Source: Treponema sp. (GTDB lineage: Bacteria; Spirochaetota; Spirochaetia; Treponematales; Breznakiellaceae). From it: a stretch of 47,371 nucleotides of DNA. The position numbers and the translations under genes are program-made. Below, in pieces: positions 1 to 8,940 of the stretch (position 1 is its first letter; every line of letters begins with the position of its first letter). The notes beneath the pieces were generated by a model. The model made no database searches. It was not told the origin of the DNA and saw only the letters and a list, made by a program, of their open reading frames with translations. Location of the stretch: contig JAITEL010000010.1 of assembly GCA_031282065.1 (NCBI GenBank), forward strand, positions 1 through 47,371, read 5' to 3'.

Positions 1-480
1 GAAGCAATCCAGACAGGGCTCTCCGCTCAGTGGATTGCTTCGCTGCGCTCGCAATGACGGAGACTCCGCCGCAATGACGGGGCGGGGCCCCCTTCATATA
101 AAAAAGCCGAAGGCCAGAAGCGGTCCACCTCGTTCCCCCCACCAGCGCGTTTACGGGGGCTTTCCTCATTGCCAAGGCGTAGCCAGAAGCAATCCAGACA
201 GGGCTCTCCGCTCGCCATGACGGGGTGGGGCCCCCTTCATACACAAAAGCCGAAGGCCAGAAGCGGTCCACCGCGTTCCCCCAGCCAGCGCGTTTACGGG
301 GGCTTTCCTCATTGCCAGGGCGTAGCCAGAAGCAATCCAGACAGGGCTCTCCGCGCAGTGGATTGCTTCGCTGCGCTCGCAATGACGGAGACTCCGCCGC
401 AATGACGGGGCGGGGCCCCCTTCATATAAAAAAGCCGAAGGTCCGCCTCGTTCCGCCAGCCCCCCAGGGGGTTTAACGCC
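1..480. repeat. Mosaic palindromic repeat cluster (left edge)
   Basis: No gene is supported here. The stretch consists of repeated modules: a palindromic half ending GCTGCGCTCGCAATGACGG (1-60 and 311-390, with a truncated copy at 165-223), a GGGGCCCCCTTCATA module followed by AAAGCCGAAGG, and a module ending in GTTTAACGCCCATAACTGG. The same modules recur at 5.8-6.3, 30.3-30.5, 39.2 and 46.1-46.6 kb. Short ORFs in it run through repeat sequence on both strands and are not credible genes. Confidence 0.85.
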
Positions 481-2672: not shown

Positions 2673-4091
2673 ATGAAAAAGCTCATTGTTCTTTTAGCTG
2701 TACTCATGGTTTTAGCAGGGGCCGTATTTGCGGAGGTTACCGTAAGCGGCAAGGTCGATACGGTGGTCATGCCGCTTCAGGTTATCGCTCCGAAAGAGGG
2801 GGATCCGCTGATAGGAGCCGCCGTGGGGAGGAACGGCAGTACCGATGCGACTCGTGCGCGAATCGGCATAGTCGCAGGCACCGAGAATGTGGGGATTAAC
2901 TTTATGGTCCAGTTTAATCCTAATCTCGGTGCTGCTGACAGAATCGGTTTGGACGATTTTGCCGAAGTGTGGTGGAAGCCCATAAGCCCCCTCAAGATCG
3001 AAGCGGGCAAGTTCGTGAACGATACCCTCCGGGGGAAGATCGGAGACGACAACTGGAACAAATATACCATGCCGATGAAGGATGCGGACGGTATTTTCAG
3101 CCGCTTCAAATCTACTAACTGGGCTGGTGGTGATGTTTCTGAGGTCGGCTTTATGCTGGGCATCACCCCCATTGAGCCCCTCTTCATCGGCGTTTCGGTT
3201 CCCAGCGTTGACCAACTTGTTAGCGCTACTCCTGATCGTACCAAGAGCTATCCCTATTATGAAAAGGAGAACAACACTTGGAAGGCCAAACAAACAACAA
3301 CAGGAAATGTGCTGACTACCTACGAGAAAATCCAGGCTGGACTGGGCTTTACCATTGAGAATATCGGTTTGATCCGGGCCCAGTACGTGGGAGCCAGTTA
3401 TATTTTTGATATGAAGACCTTCAATGCTGGAACATTCTGGCAAGATCCTTTAAAGGTTCGCCGTATTGAGGCAGCCTTCGCGTTTACCGGTATGCAAGGG
3501 CTGGTGATCGATCTGGGCGGCAAGATTCCTCTCGGTTTTAAGACCTATGAAATAACGGACTTCGAGATCGAGTCAGCTACGGATCCAATTTACACTATCG
3601 ATAATTCTACTACTCCTACTCCTACGGTGAAGGTTACACCTGGCACTCTTGCGGAAACTGGGCGGGTATTAATTGAGGATGATACTACCTACCAGGCGCC
3701 CTACCAGATTTCTCTGGGCGCGGGCTTTACCGCAGACGCCCTGGATATTAAGGGACGGGTGGACGCCCTGGTTGGAGGCAACGCAAAAACCGATAACTGG
3801 GAATACAACCTTGGTCCCCAGATCAATGTCCACCTGTGGCCTTCCTACAACCTGGGCTTTGCCACCGCCGGTTTGGATGTGGGCTTTAATTTCATCGGAG
3901 ATTCCGAGGTGAAGTCTGGGACTACCACCACCACGAAAGGTGGATACCAGTTTGGTATCGGCGCCTGGCTCAAGAAGACCTACGGTGCCTCCTCCATCAA
4001 GGGCGGCCTGGCATTGAGTCTGGGTGAAGTGAATGAAGTAAAACAGAGTACGGTCTTCTCCATTCCCATCATCTTTGACTACTCCTTCTAA
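2673..4091 (+). CDS. Outer-membrane beta-barrel (porin-like) protein
   Basis: 472 residues. ATG 2673 follows AAGGAGG. Residues 1-20 are a classic signal peptide (two Lys, a hydrophobic core, AVFA cleavage site). The mature protein consists of alternating strands rich in Gly and aromatics, and ends in ...IFDYSF, a terminal Phe as expected for a Bam-inserted barrel. The pattern matches large outer-membrane proteins of Treponema that carry many paralogs per genome, probably general porins or surface proteins. The gene stands alone with its own predicted promoter, a structured leader and an intrinsic terminator at 4112-4143. A diverged copy of its last 38 codons, with the same terminator, recurs at 5583-5750. 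Confidence 0.85.
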   Translation: MKKLIVLLAVLMVLAGAVFAEVTVSGKVDTVVMPLQVIAPKEGDPLIGAAVGRNGSTDATRARIGIVAGTENVGINFMVQFNPNLGAADRIGLDDFAEVWWKPISPLKIEAGKFVNDTLRGKIGDDNWNKYTMPMKDADGIFSRFKSTNWAGGDVSEVGFMLGITPIEPLFIGVSVPSVDQLVSATPDRTKSYPYYEKENNTWKAKQTTTGNVLTTYEKIQAGLGFTIENIGLIRAQYVGASYIFDMKTFNAGTFWQDPLKVRRIEAAFAFTGMQGLVIDLGGKIPLGFKTYEITDFEIESATDPIYTIDNSTTPTPTVKVTPGTLAETGRVLIEDDTTYQAPYQISLGAGFTADALDIKGRVDALVGGNAKTDNWEYNLGPQINVHLWPSYNLGFATAGLDVGFNFIGDSEVKSGTTTTTKGGYQFGIGAWLKKTYGASSIKGGLALSLGEVNEVKQSTVFSIPIIFDYSF

Positions 4092-4111
4092 TCCCCGCTG
4101 AAGTTCAGCTC

Positions 4112-4143
4112 AAAAGGGTCATGCGCTGCATGGCCCTTTTTTA
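4112..4143 (+). terminator. Intrinsic terminator of the outer-membrane gene
   Basis: AAAGGGTCATGC pairs with GCATGGCCCTTT (one G-T wobble, 3-nt loop), followed by six T. A 13-bp palindrome GCTGAAGTTCAGC precedes it at 4098-4110. The entire block is repeated at 5720-5750. Confidence 0.9.
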
Positions 4144-4293
4144 TTCCCGGCCTGCCCTGCGGCCGCTCCGAAAGCACCCGCCTCCACCATAAAGGCGTAT
4201 CAGAAACACTTATGCGCCATGTTCCCCCAATAGTGCAAAACCGTATAGAAAAAGATATAAAACGTCAGAACATACCCGGACATTTAATACGTC

Positions 4294-4322
4294 TTGACAT
4301 TTGAAACAATATCATTGATAAT
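4294..4322 (+). promoter_or_regulatory. Predicted promoter of the AT-rich cassette
   Basis: TTGACA (4294-4299), a 17-bp spacer, then GATAAT (4317-4322). The expected start of transcription is about 4329, so the leader would be only 11-13 nt and would begin in the AGGAG ribosome-binding site at 4329-4333. Confidence 0.75.
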
Positions 4323-4340
4323 GAAAACAGGAGCATCAAA

Positions 4341-4586
4341 ATGGGAGATAAAGTCAAGTTTTTATTACCAGAGACTAATGGGCAGTCCACTGAAACCACT
4401 GGAGAAAGTATGGAGATCATTGAAGCCAAAGAACCCTGGGCGGAATATATCCTGGAGGATGGGGCTAAGATCAGGGCAAAACAAGTTGTTATGAAGATAG
4501 TGAAATTGAATCAAAAAAATCCTGATGGGACGCCTGTTTACATACTTCAGGGACATCCGATGATGTTTGTTATACCTAAATTATAA
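4341..4586 (+). CDS. Small conserved hypothetical protein (cassette gene 1)
   Basis: An 81-residue acidic protein with no signal peptide or membrane segment. ATG 4341 follows AGGAG at 8 nt. The core EYILEDGAKIRAKQVVMKIV, followed by a Gly-x-Pro-V-Y turn near residue 65, recalls a small beta-rich family that, from memory, is found beside DUF7689-type genes in other bacteria and has no known function. It is the first gene of a three-gene unit: the next start is one base after its stop codon. The cassette is clearly more AT-rich than its surroundings, which suggests acquisition by transfer. Confidence 0.75.
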   Translation: MGDKVKFLLPETNGQSTETTGESMEIIEAKEPWAEYILEDGAKIRAKQVVMKIVKLNQKNPDGTPVYILQGHPMMFVIPKL

Positions 4587-4587
4587 A

Positions 4588-5112
4588 ATGTTAAACTTAA
4601 ATAGTTCAGTTGAATTAATATGTGTATCTAATTCTTTTAGCAATGTCTTTTTTTCAGACAACAAAAAAGATATATTGTTTAATAATAGATTTGTTTTTCC
4701 TTCTATGCCGTTACTGGAAAGCGGGGATTACATAAATACAGAAAATTATAGTAACAAGTATTTTAAGGGTCCGTTTTCATTTTTCCAACTTATCGAAACA
4801 GCGCCGGTTGTAATAAACAGGATACAAGTATTATTTAATTATTATTATGAAGAATGGAACAAGGAAATAAAATATCAATCTTCCACTGATGTTATAACAA
4901 ACAACTCCTTTTTTAAAAGCATAATCGATCTTGGAAGTGAAGTTATTCCTTATATTATCGAAGTTTTAAGGGATACACCCAGTTTTTTGATTATCGCATT
5001 ATATAAGATAACCGGTGAGAATCCGGTGAAGCCGGACCATTGTGGCAAGATTAAAGAGATGACAAAAGATTGGATTGAATGGTGGGATAAAAGATATTCT
5101 GCAATAGGTTAG
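4588..5112 (+). CDS. Conserved hypothetical protein (cassette gene 2)
   Basis: 174 residues from ATG 4588; an in-frame TTG at 4567 would overlap the upstream gene. Very AT-rich. The N-terminal 80 residues are poorly conserved in type. The C-terminal half carries recognisable elements: a helix with LGSEVIPYIIEVL, then FLIIALYKITGENPV, then a final Trp-rich helix with DWIEWWDK. This pattern (small helical repeat, ITGE-x-P-V, Trp-rich end) matches a family I recall as an uncharacterised partner of DUF7689 proteins. It could bind or restrain the following protein, as an immunity or antitoxin partner would, but this is inference from the neighbourhood only. Confidence 0.75.
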   Translation: MLNLNSSVELICVSNSFSNVFFSDNKKDILFNNRFVFPSMPLLESGDYINTENYSNKYFKGPFSFFQLIETAPVVINRIQVLFNYYYEEWNKEIKYQSSTDVITNNSFFKSIIDLGSEVIPYIIEVLRDTPSFLIIALYKITGENPVKPDHCGKIKEMTKDWIEWWDKRYSAIG

Positions 5113-5116
5113 TGTT

Positions 5117-5545
5117 GTGAATAATGTAGATGCATTTCCTAATATGACTGCCCATAACAATAAAAGTACAAGCTGTGCTACAAAAGATTATAATTGTATT
5201 GCATGGGCATTAGAAAAAGATGATGTTTGGTGTTGGCCAGATCGAGAGGGATATTCTTTTTGGCCGATAAAAAACCGTAAAGCAACGCAAGATGTATTTA
5301 TAGAAATGTTTTCAAGTTTTGGATATAAATGTTGTGAGAACTATACCTTAGAAGAAGGTTATCAAAAAATTATTATTTATATGAAAGATGGTAATCCAAC
5401 TCATGCATCACGACAATTAAAAAATGGTAAATGGACCAGTAAACTTGGTGCAAATGTTGATATCGAGCATGACTGTCCTGAAGTATTGAATGGACCAGTA
5501 TATGGAATTGCAACAATAATTATGAGAAGGGAAAACGGCACATAA
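5117..5545 (+). CDS. DUF7689-type protein with candidate Cys/His active site
   Basis: 142 residues from GTG 5117, four bases after the upstream stop codon. The family signature is clear: YNCIAWAL (Cys27), several Trp-Pro pairs (WCWPD, FWPI), LEEGYQKIIIY, PTHASRQL (His96), WTSKLG and DIEHDCPE (His118). Cys near the N-terminus inside an N-C-x-A helix start, followed by a conserved His on a later strand, is the layout of papain/NlpC-P60-like hydrolases, so a Cys27-His96 pair could be catalytic. No signal peptide is visible. Known of the family: to my knowledge only a DUF number. The enzymatic reading is a hypothesis. Confidence 0.8.
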   Translation: MNNVDAFPNMTAHNNKSTSCATKDYNCIAWALEKDDVWCWPDREGYSFWPIKNRKATQDVFIEMFSSFGYKCCENYTLEEGYQKIIIYMKDGNPTHASRQLKNGKWTSKLGANVDIEHDCPEVLNGPVYGIATIIMRRENGT

Positions 5546-5582
5546 CGAGGTCTGTATATGCTTCGCCGCCAGTAGGCGGCTC

Positions 5583-5699
5583 GGCTACGGCGGAGCCTCC
5601 ATCAGGGGCGGCCTTGCCTACCGGCTCGCCGGTGAAGTCAACAAAACGAAAGAGCCGGGAGTGTTCTCCGTTCCCATCATCTTTGACGACAGCTTCTAA
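5583..5699 (+). pseudogene. 3'-end fragment of an outer-membrane protein gene
   Basis: The frame that ends at TAA 5697-5699 reads 38 codons related to the C-terminus of the protein at 2673: an IRGGLAYRLAGEVNKT stretch and a final PIIFDDSF against PIIFDYSF. The upstream part of the gene is missing. The sequence after the stop codon is nearly identical to that after the complete gene for about 95 bp. Confidence 0.85.
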
Positions 5700-5719
5700 T
5701 CCCCGCTGAAGTTCAGCTC

Positions 5720-5750
5720 AAAAGGGTCATGCGCTGCATGGCCCTTTTTT
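5720..5750 (+). terminator. Second copy of the outer-membrane gene terminator
   Basis: Identical stem, loop and T-tract to 4112-4143. Here it would end transcripts from the AT-rich cassette. Confidence 0.9.
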
Positions 5751-5805
5751 ATTCCCGGCCTGCCCTGCGGCCGCTCCGAAAGCCCCCGGCTCCACCATAC
5801 CGTCA

Positions 5806-6305
5806 TTGCGGCGGAGTCTCCGTCATTGCGAGCGCAGCGAAGCAATCCACCGCGGGCACTGCACGGTCTGGATTGCTTCGGACTTCACCCTCGCAATGAC
5901 GAAAGCTCCCGTCATCCCCGTAAACCCGCTGGGGGGCGGAACGAGCCGGACAGTTCCGGGCCTTCGGCTTGTTTATATGAAGGGGGCCCCGCCCCGTCAT
6001 TGCGAGCGCAGCGAAGCAATCCACCGCGGGGACTGCACGGTCTGGATTGCTTCGGACTTCGCCCTCGCAATGACGAAAGCCACCAAACCCCTCGGATGTC
6101 CGTCCTGATCACCACTGCCCTCCAGGGGCTTTACCCCCCTTCTGGGGGGCCCTGCCCCGTCATTGCGAGCGCAGCGAAGCAATCCACCGCGGGCACTGCA
6201 CGGTCTGGATTGCTTCGGGCTTCGCCCTCGCAATGACGAAAGCCACCAAACCCCTCGGATGTCCGTCCTGATCACCACTGCCCTCCAGGGGCCTTAACCG
6301 CCCCC
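5806..6305. repeat. Mosaic palindromic repeats, three copies
   Basis: Copies of an approximately 80-bp imperfect palindrome at 5821-5901, 5996-6075 and 6158-6238; each begins GTCATTGCGAGCGCAGCGAA and ends in CTCGCAATGACGAAAGC. A second module carrying CGGATGTCCGTCCTGATCAC occurs twice (about 6090 and 6255). No gene is supported. The last copy abuts the stop codon of adhE. Confidence 0.9.
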
Positions 6306-6312
6306 GGAGGTT

Positions 6313-8940
6313 CTATAGGGTTACCCTGTCGGGGCTGCCGTAATAGGCGTTGAGGTACATGGTCTTTATTTCGCTTATCAAGGGATAGCGGGGGTTGGTG
6401 CCGGTACATTGATCGTCAAAGGCCTGCCGGCTCATCTCATCCAGCCGAGCAAGAAAATACCCTTCATCAACCCCATAATCCCGGATTCGCGGCTGTATAT
6501 CCACCGTTTCTTTGAGCCCGTCAATCGTATGCAGCAGAGACTGGAGTTTCTCAGCATCGTTCTTGCCCTGAAGGCCCAGATAGTCCGCAAGCTCCCCATA
6601 GCGGGAAAGAGTATGGGGGTGATCGTACTGGGGGAAGGTCCCCATCTTGACCGGCATTTCGCTTGCATTAAAGCGGATCACCTCGGTTATCATCAGGGCA
6701 TTGGCAATTCCGTGGGGGAGATGGTGGAATGCGCCAAGTTTATGGGCCATAGCATGACAGACCCCCAGGAACGCATTGGCAAAAGCCATACCCGCCATAG
6801 TGGCGGCATTGGCCAGCTTTTCCCAGGCCGCCGGGCTACCGCTTCCCTTCTGATAGGCCTCAGGCAGGTATTCGAAAAGGAGCTTTAAGGCATGCCGGGC
6901 AAGGCCATCGGTGTAATCCGTGGCGCCCATAGAAACATAGGCTTCCAGGGCATGGGTCATGGCATCAATACCCGCGGCACTGATGAGGCTCTTGGGCGCA
7001 TTCATCATCATGTCCGCATCCACAATCGCCATATCCGGGAGCAGCTCATAGTCCGCAAGGGGATACTTCATACCGGATGCTTCGTCGGTGATAACCGCAA
7101 AAGGGGTAACCTCACTGCCGGTTCCTGCCGAAGTGGGAATCGCGATGAAATACGCCTTAGTCCCCATAGCGGGGAAGGTATACACCCGCTTGCGGATATC
7201 CGCAAAGCGCATGGCCATGTCTTGAAAATCCACTTCAGGATGTTCATAGAGCGCCCACATGATCTTGGCCGCATCCATAGCAGACCCGCCTCCCAGGGCT
7301 ATGATGCAGTCAGGAGTAAAGGCCTGCATCGCCCTTGCTCCTTCTTGAGCGCAGCCAAGGCTGGGATCCGGTTCCACCTGGAAGAAGACCTGGGAGACTA
7401 TGCCCAGTTCGTACAGCTTATCCTCTACGGTTTTGGTATAGCCGTGATGATACAGAAAGGTATCGGTTACTATAAAGACCCGTTTCTTGTGCAATACCCG
7501 GGCTACTTCCTCAAGGGCCACAGGAAGGCAACCCTTCTTGAGATAGATCTTTTCAGGAACCCTGAACCACAGCATATTTTCCCTCCTCTCTGCCAGGGTT
7601 TTGATGTTGATAAGCTGTTTCACCCCCACATTGTCGCAAACCGAATTCCCTCCCCAGGAACCACAGCCCAAGGTGAGCGAAGGGGTGAGCTTAAAATTGT
7701 ACATGTCCCCGATACCCCCGTGGGAAGAGGGACTATTCACCAGGATACGGCAGGTCTTCATCCGAGCGGAAAACTCCGCAAGCTGCTCCTTGGCCTGCAC
7801 GGTATTGAGGTATACCGATGCGGTATGCCCATAGCCCCCTGCCCGGATGAGGGGCTCGGCAATGTCTAGGGCCTGGGTAAAGGTCTTGGCCTGATACAAA
7901 GCCAAGATCGGGGAGAGTTTCTCCTGGGCAAAGGCTTCGCCCGTATCTACCCGGCTTACCTCGCCTATGAGTATCTTGGTCTGTTCCGGGACATCCAGCC
8001 CTGCCATAGAGGCGATGTGCTTGGCGGACTGTCCCACAATCTTGGCGTTTAAGACGCCCTGGATCAGGATGCAGTTCCGTACCTTCTCGGTTTCCTCAGG
8101 ACTCAGGAAATAGCAGCCCCGGCGCTGGAATTCCTCTTTGACTGCCTGGTACACCCCTTCCAGTACAATGACCGATTGCTCGGAAGCGCAGATCATGCCG
8201 TTATCAAAAGTCTTGGAGTGGATGATGGAACTGACCGCCAAAAGGATGTCCGCGCTCTCATCAATGATAGCCGGGGTATTGCCCGAACCTACCCCAATGG
8301 CGGGTTTACCCGAGGTATACGCGGCCTTGACCATGCCCTGTCCACCAGTGGCCAGAATGAGATCCACCTCCTGCATCAGCCGATTGCTGAGTTCCAAACT
8401 CGGCTCATCAAGCCAGCGGATGAGCCCTTCAGGGGCCCCGGCTTGCACCGCTGCTTCCAGCAAGAGTTTGGCCGCTTCGTTGGTGCAGCGTTTTGCCCGG
8501 GGATGTGAGGAAAAGAATATCCCGTTCCGGGTCTTTAGCGCGAGGAGAGTCTTAAAAATAGTGGTAGAAGTGGGATTGGTTGTGGGGATAATCCCGGCAA
8601 TAATACCCACCGGTTCGGCGATTTTCTTGATGCCGTATACCAGGTCTTCTTCAATGACGCCGCAGGTCTTGGTCTCCCTATAGGCATTATAGATATATTC
8701 TGCGGCGTAGTGGTTCTTGATGACCTTATCCTCCAGAATTCCCATACCGGTTTCCTCCACTGCCATCTGGGCCAGGGGAATCCGGGCTTGATTGGCCGCT
8801 TTGGCCGCGGCAAAAAAGATACGGTCTACCTGTTCCTGGGTAAAGGTCGCAAAAATCCGCTGGGCATCCCGTAGGCCCGCGAGGGCTTGGTGCAAGGTTT
8901 CTGTATCTTTCACCGGTGCATAGCTTTTAAGTAAAGCCAT
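6313..8940 (-). CDS. adhE: Bifunctional acetaldehyde/alcohol dehydrogenase AdhE
   Basis: 875 residues, the usual length. It converts acetyl-CoA to acetaldehyde and then ethanol with two NADH, in cytosolic spirosome filaments in characterised members. Residues 1 to about 445 form the CoA-acylating aldehyde dehydrogenase; catalytic Cys251 lies in DNGMICASEQ. Residues from about 455 form an iron-type alcohol dehydrogenase with the NAD-binding GGGSAMDAAK, and the metal-binding stretch DAMTHALEAY plus CHAMAHKLGAFHHLPHG. ATG 8940 follows AAGGAG. A well-formed promoter lies at 9020-9048. No Rex-type TTGTGA-N-TCACAA operator was seen. The gene is monocistronic and divergent from the lipoprotein gene at 9268. 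Its role is probably NADH disposal in fermentation. Confidence 0.98.
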   Translation of the reverse strand: MALLKSYAPVKDTETLHQALAGLRDAQRIFATFTQEQVDRIFFAAAKAANQARIPLAQMAVEETGMGILEDKVIKNHYAAEYIYNAYRETKTCGVIEEDLVYGIKKIAEPVGIIAGIIPTTNPTSTTIFKTLLALKTRNGIFFSSHPRAKRCTNEAAKLLLEAAVQAGAPEGLIRWLDEPSLELSNRLMQEVDLILATGGQGMVKAAYTSGKPAIGVGSGNTPAIIDESADILLAVSSIIHSKTFDNGMICASEQSVIVLEGVYQAVKEEFQRRGCYFLSPEETEKVRNCILIQGVLNAKIVGQSAKHIASMAGLDVPEQTKILIGEVSRVDTGEAFAQEKLSPILALYQAKTFTQALDIAEPLIRAGGYGHTASVYLNTVQAKEQLAEFSARMKTCRILVNSPSSHGGIGDMYNFKLTPSLTLGCGSWGGNSVCDNVGVKQLINIKTLAERRENMLWFRVPEKIYLKKGCLPVALEEVARVLHKKRVFIVTDTFLYHHGYTKTVEDKLYELGIVSQVFFQVEPDPSLGCAQEGARAMQAFTPDCIIALGGGSAMDAAKIMWALYEHPEVDFQDMAMRFADIRKRVYTFPAMGTKAYFIAIPTSAGTGSEVTPFAVITDEASGMKYPLADYELLPDMAIVDADMMMNAPKSLISAAGIDAMTHALEAYVSMGATDYTDGLARHALKLLFEYLPEAYQKGSGSPAAWEKLANAATMAGMAFANAFLGVCHAMAHKLGAFHHLPHGIANALMITEVIRFNASEMPVKMGTFPQYDHPHTLSRYGELADYLGLQGKNDAEKLQSLLHTIDGLKETVDIQPRIRDYGVDEGYFLARLDEMSRQAFDDQCTGTNPRYPLISEIKTMYLNAYYGSPDRVTL

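Follow-up and report, generated by a model that had tools for sequence, protein, structure and literature searches.

What do three small genes that are far poorer in G+C than their surroundings do in a spirochaete, and how did they come to be located beside an outer-membrane protein (OMP) gene? The genes are found in a 47,371-nucleotide stretch of Treponema sp. DNA (contig JAITEL010000010.1, hereafter the window) from a genome of 2.65 Mb, where they sit between a complete OMP gene and an alcohol dehydrogenase gene on the opposite strand (6313-8940). An initial annotation described three packed genes starting at 4341, 4588 and 5117, and open reading frames are confirmed at these places (Table 1), with spacings of 1 nucleotide between genes 1 and 2 and 4 nucleotides between genes 2 and 3. 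The claim that this cassette is more AT-rich than its surroundings is likewise borne out: its G+C content of 0.334 compares with a contig mean of 0.533 (standard deviation 0.044, z −4.6, in 1205-nucleotide windows), and the next-lowest value elsewhere on the contig in windows of this size is 0.454. The promoter proposed for the cassette corresponds to a near-consensus sigma-70-like site upstream of gene 1, and shuffling the local sequence produces an equally good site in 0.4% of cases. No toxin-antitoxin model from PADLOC, Pfam or NCBIfam matches the proteins of the window, and searches with the cassette and its relatives returned no PADLOC matches of any kind.

Table 1. Features of the three-gene cassette and its flanks (positions in the window)
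Feature	Position	Strand	Basis or remark
Complete outer-membrane beta-barrel gene	2673..4091	+	472-aa ORF, signal peptide-like start
OMP gene 3′ end and terminator, left direct-repeat copy	3980..4191	+	Repeat search
Sigma-70-like promoter, TTGACA-17-GATAAT, 11/12 consensus	4294..4322	+	Sequence match
Gene 1, small conserved protein, 81 aa (head gene)	4341..4586	+	Relatives in G018, L056, L057, L063, L064
Gene 2, partner protein, 174 aa	4588..5112	+	N-terminal ~75 residues without confident model; C-terminal helical core
Gene 2 conserved helical core, residues 79-173	4822..5106	+	Profile match just 5′ of DUF7689 in every separate-gene locus that allowed the test
Gene 3, DUF7689 (PF24738), predicted papain-fold cysteine enzyme, 142 aa	5117..5545	+	Pfam match, AlphaFold model, fold neighbours
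Cys27 codon, putative nucleophile, N-terminal end of helix 27-31	5195..5197	+	Alignment, AlphaFold model
His96 codon, putative catalytic base, strand 93-100	5402..5404	+	Alignment, AlphaFold model
His118 codon, putative third residue, strand 114-118	5468..5470	+	Alignment, AlphaFold model
OMP paralogue 3′ remnant and terminator, right direct-repeat copy	5577..5799	+	Repeat search, paralogue comparison

The framing of the cassette by duplicated OMP gene ends, also part of the initial annotation, is reflected in a diverged second copy located downstream of gene 3. The two copies share 88% identity over 4023-4191 and 5631-5799 and 82% identity over 3980-4012 and 5585-5617, with a longest exact run of 91 nucleotides. 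The right copy consists of the last ~40 codons of a diverged OMP paralogue, and an intact paralogue is present elsewhere in the same genome (G000:C116). The complete OMP gene itself has a weak match to the TDE1717 family and has relatives in congeners; those retrieved sit on contigs lacking the downstream alcohol dehydrogenase gene and reveal no empty site. The gene 3 family, DUF7689, is absent from the ten congeners searched. We take the cassette to be acquired DNA that lies beside a truncated OMP paralogue. A misassembly or chimera at this place is unlikely, because what follows the cassette at its right junction is a diverged OMP remnant that belongs to this lineage. Arrays of a ~160-nucleotide repeat, with inverted arms around GCGAAGCAATCC / CGTCATTGCGAG, flank the OMP-cassette region on both sides (window 1-450 and 5800-6300). 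In addition, a tandem coding-like repeat (KFLIRLRRFSSQPR...) at 492-764, upstream of 884, is possibly a degenerate repeat and not a gene.

Gene 3 had been described as a DUF7689-type protein whose Cys27, His96 and His118 follow a papain/NlpC-P60-like layout. It is indeed a full-length member of the Pfam family DUF7689 (PF24738; E 2.9e-35; 122 bits against a curated cut-off of 22.6; profile positions 2-117 of 118), to which Pfam itself assigns no function. In an alignment of 16 DUF7689 relatives, both histidines are conserved throughout (16/16) and Cys27 in 14/16, and a nearby Tyr, an Asn and a Ser-Lys-x-Gly motif are also invariant. The two exceptions are closely related cyanobacterial copies (L026 and L027) in which Ser replaces Cys27 and both histidines are kept, a substitution that calls for caution in presuming catalysis in all copies of the family.

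The AlphaFold model of gene 3, built from nine sequences, has a papain-like layout (pLDDT 80.8, pTM 0.78). A Foldseek search with this model gave weak matches with NlpC/P60 enzymes first, and structural re-alignment to the best 1000 chains gave Z values of 4.0-6.4, mostly to papain-fold enzymes among the 50 structures listed. The top neighbours include AvrPphB, an endolysin, YopQ, the Citrobacter CdiA-CT toxin (8ssm, Z 5.4), NlpC/P60 enzymes, Josephins, staphopain, ComA and a papain-like toxin/immunity pair (9l5u, Z 4.9). Each of these Z values, taken singly, is under the safe level of the tool, and the weight of the evidence comes from the fact that nearly all neighbours share one fold class. 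An ungapped first aligned pair would place Cys27 on the catalytic cysteine of staphopain and of ComA. The proposed layout is thus supported by the model and its fold neighbours, and gene 3 probably encodes a papain-type cysteine enzyme. In fold and in Cys-His order it resembles the NlpC/P60 endopeptidases CwlO, LytE and MepS. However, it has no Pfam NlpC/P60 match at E values up to 1, and neither a signal peptide nor a wall-binding domain is present. The protein is also a stand-alone polypeptide of 142 residues, with no fusion to a secretion carrier of the kind that marks polymorphic toxins. Sequence-profile searches of the PDB with all three proteins of the cassette yielded nothing usable.

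The protein encoded by gene 2 matches no Pfam family and shows neither an antitoxin nor a DNA-binding domain of a recognised kind. Over its final ~95 residues it matches a gene located directly 5′ of DUF7689 in another spirochaete (E 4e-12 in a single comparison). The predicted structure of this core is compact and helical, with pLDDT mostly above 90, and residues 1-59 are modelled below pLDDT 50. Comparison of the model with known folds gave a best Z of 3.9 and nothing convincing.

A profile of this core reveals a strict association with gene 3 relatives. The core is encoded directly 5′ of DUF7689 and in the same direction in 28/28 separate-gene loci that have enough upstream sequence, namely the window, L009 to L011, 19 cyanobacterial places and five loci on viral contigs; this count takes in near-identical pairs (e.g. 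L028/L029), and several of the loci also served to build the profile. The two frames touch or overlap in most of the 28 loci. One additional DUF7689 locus (L050) is cut by the end of its contig. A further candidate, G667 (L030), was dropped from the family after its weak match was not confirmed by a richer profile. Among the loci surveyed with upstream sequence, DUF7689 was never seen without the core. By contrast, the core occurs without DUF7689 in the available flank at four loci (L070, L071, L076 and L062), and at two others (L079 and L085) it is accompanied by a short, decayed DUF7689 stub. Such a one-sided pattern, in which the core may stand alone and the enzyme does not, would be expected of an enzyme that cells tolerate only together with its partner.

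Two of the solitary cores have distinctive surroundings. At L071:475-1854, the core makes up the C-terminal end of a fusion protein in which a HEPN-like RNxxxH motif can be seen by eye, and DUF433-like and DUF5615-like genes, also recognised by eye, follow; Pfam finds no domain in the fused protein. At L062:4824-5276, on a 547-kb viral-labelled contig, the core overlaps the start of an open reading frame resembling RNase H.

The core-DUF7689 pair ranges over spirochaetes, cyanobacteria, unclassified sequences, viral-labelled contigs and plasmids of Bacteroidales. Its spread is patchy, with DUF7689 present in 2/393 spirochaetes and 17/292 cyanobacteria and the gene 2 core in 20 of the 292 cyanobacterial genomes. 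Some DUF7689 copies lie on contigs that carry phage structural genes, and those at L059 and L060 are near phage tail genes; no DUF7689 match was found in 50,697 phage records. On plasmids of Bacteroides and Phocaeicola, the core is fused behind DUF7689 in one exported lipoprotein, and a core profile built without these lipoproteins still finds the fusions (E 2.2e-10 and 1.9e-9). An exported protein of Parabacteroides matches the core profile weakly (E 0.28). A DUF7689-bearing gene is carried by ten conjugative plasmids of gut Bacteroidales. On one conjugative Bacteroides plasmid (L003:5827-10520, NZ_CP041231.1), the DUF7689-core lipoprotein gene has downstream of it, on the same strand, a second lipoprotein-like gene and a gene for a MACPF-domain protein.

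Gene 1 has no Pfam, NCBIfam or PADLOC match. A relationship to thioredoxin was considered and rejected (E 0.0023 over just 31 residues, with a two-sequence profile). The initial annotation named the same three families as neighbours elsewhere, and this holds: the gene order recurs on two metagenomic contigs, at L056 and, with a frame break in gene 2, at L057/L061. The accompanying proposal of a three-gene functional module has fared less well: the obligatory pair consists of genes 2 and 3, and the upstream place that gene 1 holds can be filled by various other partners, which makes the proposal too narrow. Specifically, gene 1 heads unrelated genes at L008 and L063, and its position before the core and DUF7689 is taken at L009 and L010 by TIGR04255. 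At other loci the core is instead fused to a head domain: L021 carries SocA_Panacea (E 1.8e-23), L017 carries DUF433 (E 2.6e-22) and L084 a GAF domain, and further fused heads occur as well. In most cyanobacterial copies neither gene 1 nor TIGR04255 is directly upstream.

Near neighbours on the DUF7689 tree differ in their heads (L017 compared to L018 and L015; L024 compared to L025), on a tree whose deep branches lack resolution and in which the branch of the window is long. At 26 cyanobacterial loci (L121-L150), the genes that come second after TIGR04255 are of 13 kinds unrelated to one another, often with an ATGA overlap, and on a Vibrio plasmid TIGR04255 precedes a gene pair that includes a zeta toxin. 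The architecture is one of mix and match. Heads that resembled Phd or RHH proteins by eye (L016, L022 and L023) found no Pfam support at E 10, and two of them, compared with plasmids by tblastn, were likewise unsupported; these are left out of the evidence.

We propose that the cassette arrived by horizontal transfer and represents a two-protein module, widespread but unnamed, in which a dedicated partner would hold a papain-fold effector much as in toxin-antitoxin or effector-immunity systems. We place the probability of this reading at roughly one half. Gene 3 would supply the predicted cysteine enzyme, and the core of gene 2 would be its dedicated binding partner. The gene 2 product, presumably made before the gene 3 product from one transcript, might keep the enzyme inactive, as an antitoxin or immunity protein does, until the core is lost or displaced. 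The exchangeable head, which is gene 1 in this cassette and TIGR04255, Panacea, DUF433 or another element at other loci, may provide regulation or sensing, and the enzyme could be toxic or could act on a host or phage target. We count in favour of a partner-controlled effector the strict linkage and order of the core and DUF7689, the asymmetry with which one is found without the other, the conserved Cys and His residues, the fold matches that include the toxin/immunity pairs 8ssm and 9l5u, the fusions of the core to the antitoxin domain SocA_Panacea in L021 and to DUF433 in L017, the TIGR04255 head before a zeta-toxin pair in Vibrio, the patchy spread, and the occurrence both on plasmids and on contigs that carry phage genes. 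Counted against it are the two cyanobacterial copies with Ser in place of Cys27, the modest Z values of the fold matches (at most 6.4), the lack of toxin-antitoxin model matches for the proteins of the window, the Phd-like and RHH-like heads that Pfam did not bear out, and the exported DUF7689-core fusion, which would be superfluous in a simple toxin-antitoxin pair. An extended form of the proposal, which we offer tentatively and consider doubtful as a whole, is that the pair constitutes a new toxin-antitoxin-like family of combinatorial make-up, whose effector would be a papain-fold protease or transferase. Heads would set what triggers its release, and Bacteroidales would have made from it an exported two-domain lipoprotein that lies beside a MACPF protein on conjugative plasmids.

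The exported fusion is the strongest fact contrary to a partner-controlled effector, and it favours an explanation in which nothing is toxic. DUF7689 and the core could be two subunits of one enzyme, split in most bacteria and fused in Bacteroidales, with the core recognising the substrate or completing the fold. The joining of both domains in the Bacteroides and Phocaeicola lipoproteins, and weakly in the Parabacteroides protein, fits this arrangement, which predicts the strict linkage of the core to DUF7689 equally. However, a plain subunit would not need to persist where DUF7689 is missing, nor to be fused to antitoxin and other unrelated domains, and we regard the two-subunit enzyme as possible but somewhat unlikely.

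The behaviour of the heads suggests another role for the locus, in which gene 1 and TIGR04255 serve variable tail proteins as adaptors or chaperones and DUF7689-core is one mobile cargo among others, perhaps delivered to other cells or used by phages. The many second genes that follow TIGR04255 in cyanobacteria and the other pairs headed by gene 1 (L008 and L063) are consistent with such a system, and the poorly modelled first 59 residues of gene 2 could be a flexible signal. We consider it improbable, given that the loci examined had no recognisable secretion genes next to them and that most cyanobacterial copies have neither proposed adaptor directly upstream. Least likely is a phage-carried, NlpC/P60-like hydrolase for cell-wall cleavage or lysis with the core as its targeting domain, which the NlpC/P60 fold neighbours and the copies near phage tail genes bring to mind, but which is opposed by the missing export signal, wall-binding domain and family match of gene 3, by the absence of matches in phage records and by the predominance of cyanobacterial copies without adjacent phage genes.

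If the core and DUF7689 do form a partner-controlled effector, two kinds of known system are its closest counterparts. Papain-fold (clan CA) toxin/immunity pairs, such as Citrobacter CdiA-CT/CdiI (8ssm) and the pair in 9l5u, are alike in predicted fold and in having a small enzyme that adjoins a small partner gene. However, the cassette has no contact-dependent or secreted carrier, its partner gene comes first, and there is no sequence similarity to these pairs. Type II toxin-antitoxin systems with exchangeable antitoxin domains are exemplified by the Panacea network (PMC8832971, PMC10440598). With these the cassette family shares a small, co-directional pair with the partner gene first, a patchy spread and, in L021, a fusion of the Panacea domain to the core; the core and DUF7689 differ in also being fused in exported proteins. 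TIGR04255 is catalogued in NCBIfam (sporadTIGR04255), and the head gene of the window is unrelated to it. The literature searched contained no mention of DUF7689 or TIGR04255, and it seems to hold no description of the partner domain, of its obligatory pairing or of the head exchange. The core-DUF7689 system would be a kind of partner-controlled effector and not a new category.

These results give DUF7689, a curated but nameless family, a concrete hypothesis of function, and they identify an apparently undescribed partner domain with which it is obligatorily paired. Spirochaetes and cyanobacteria have the pair in common with gut plasmids and phage-like contigs. Should the effector prove to be a protease that is freed by loss of its partner, it would represent a new enzyme class in toxin-antitoxin and phage-defence networks, one that can be tested with two small genes.
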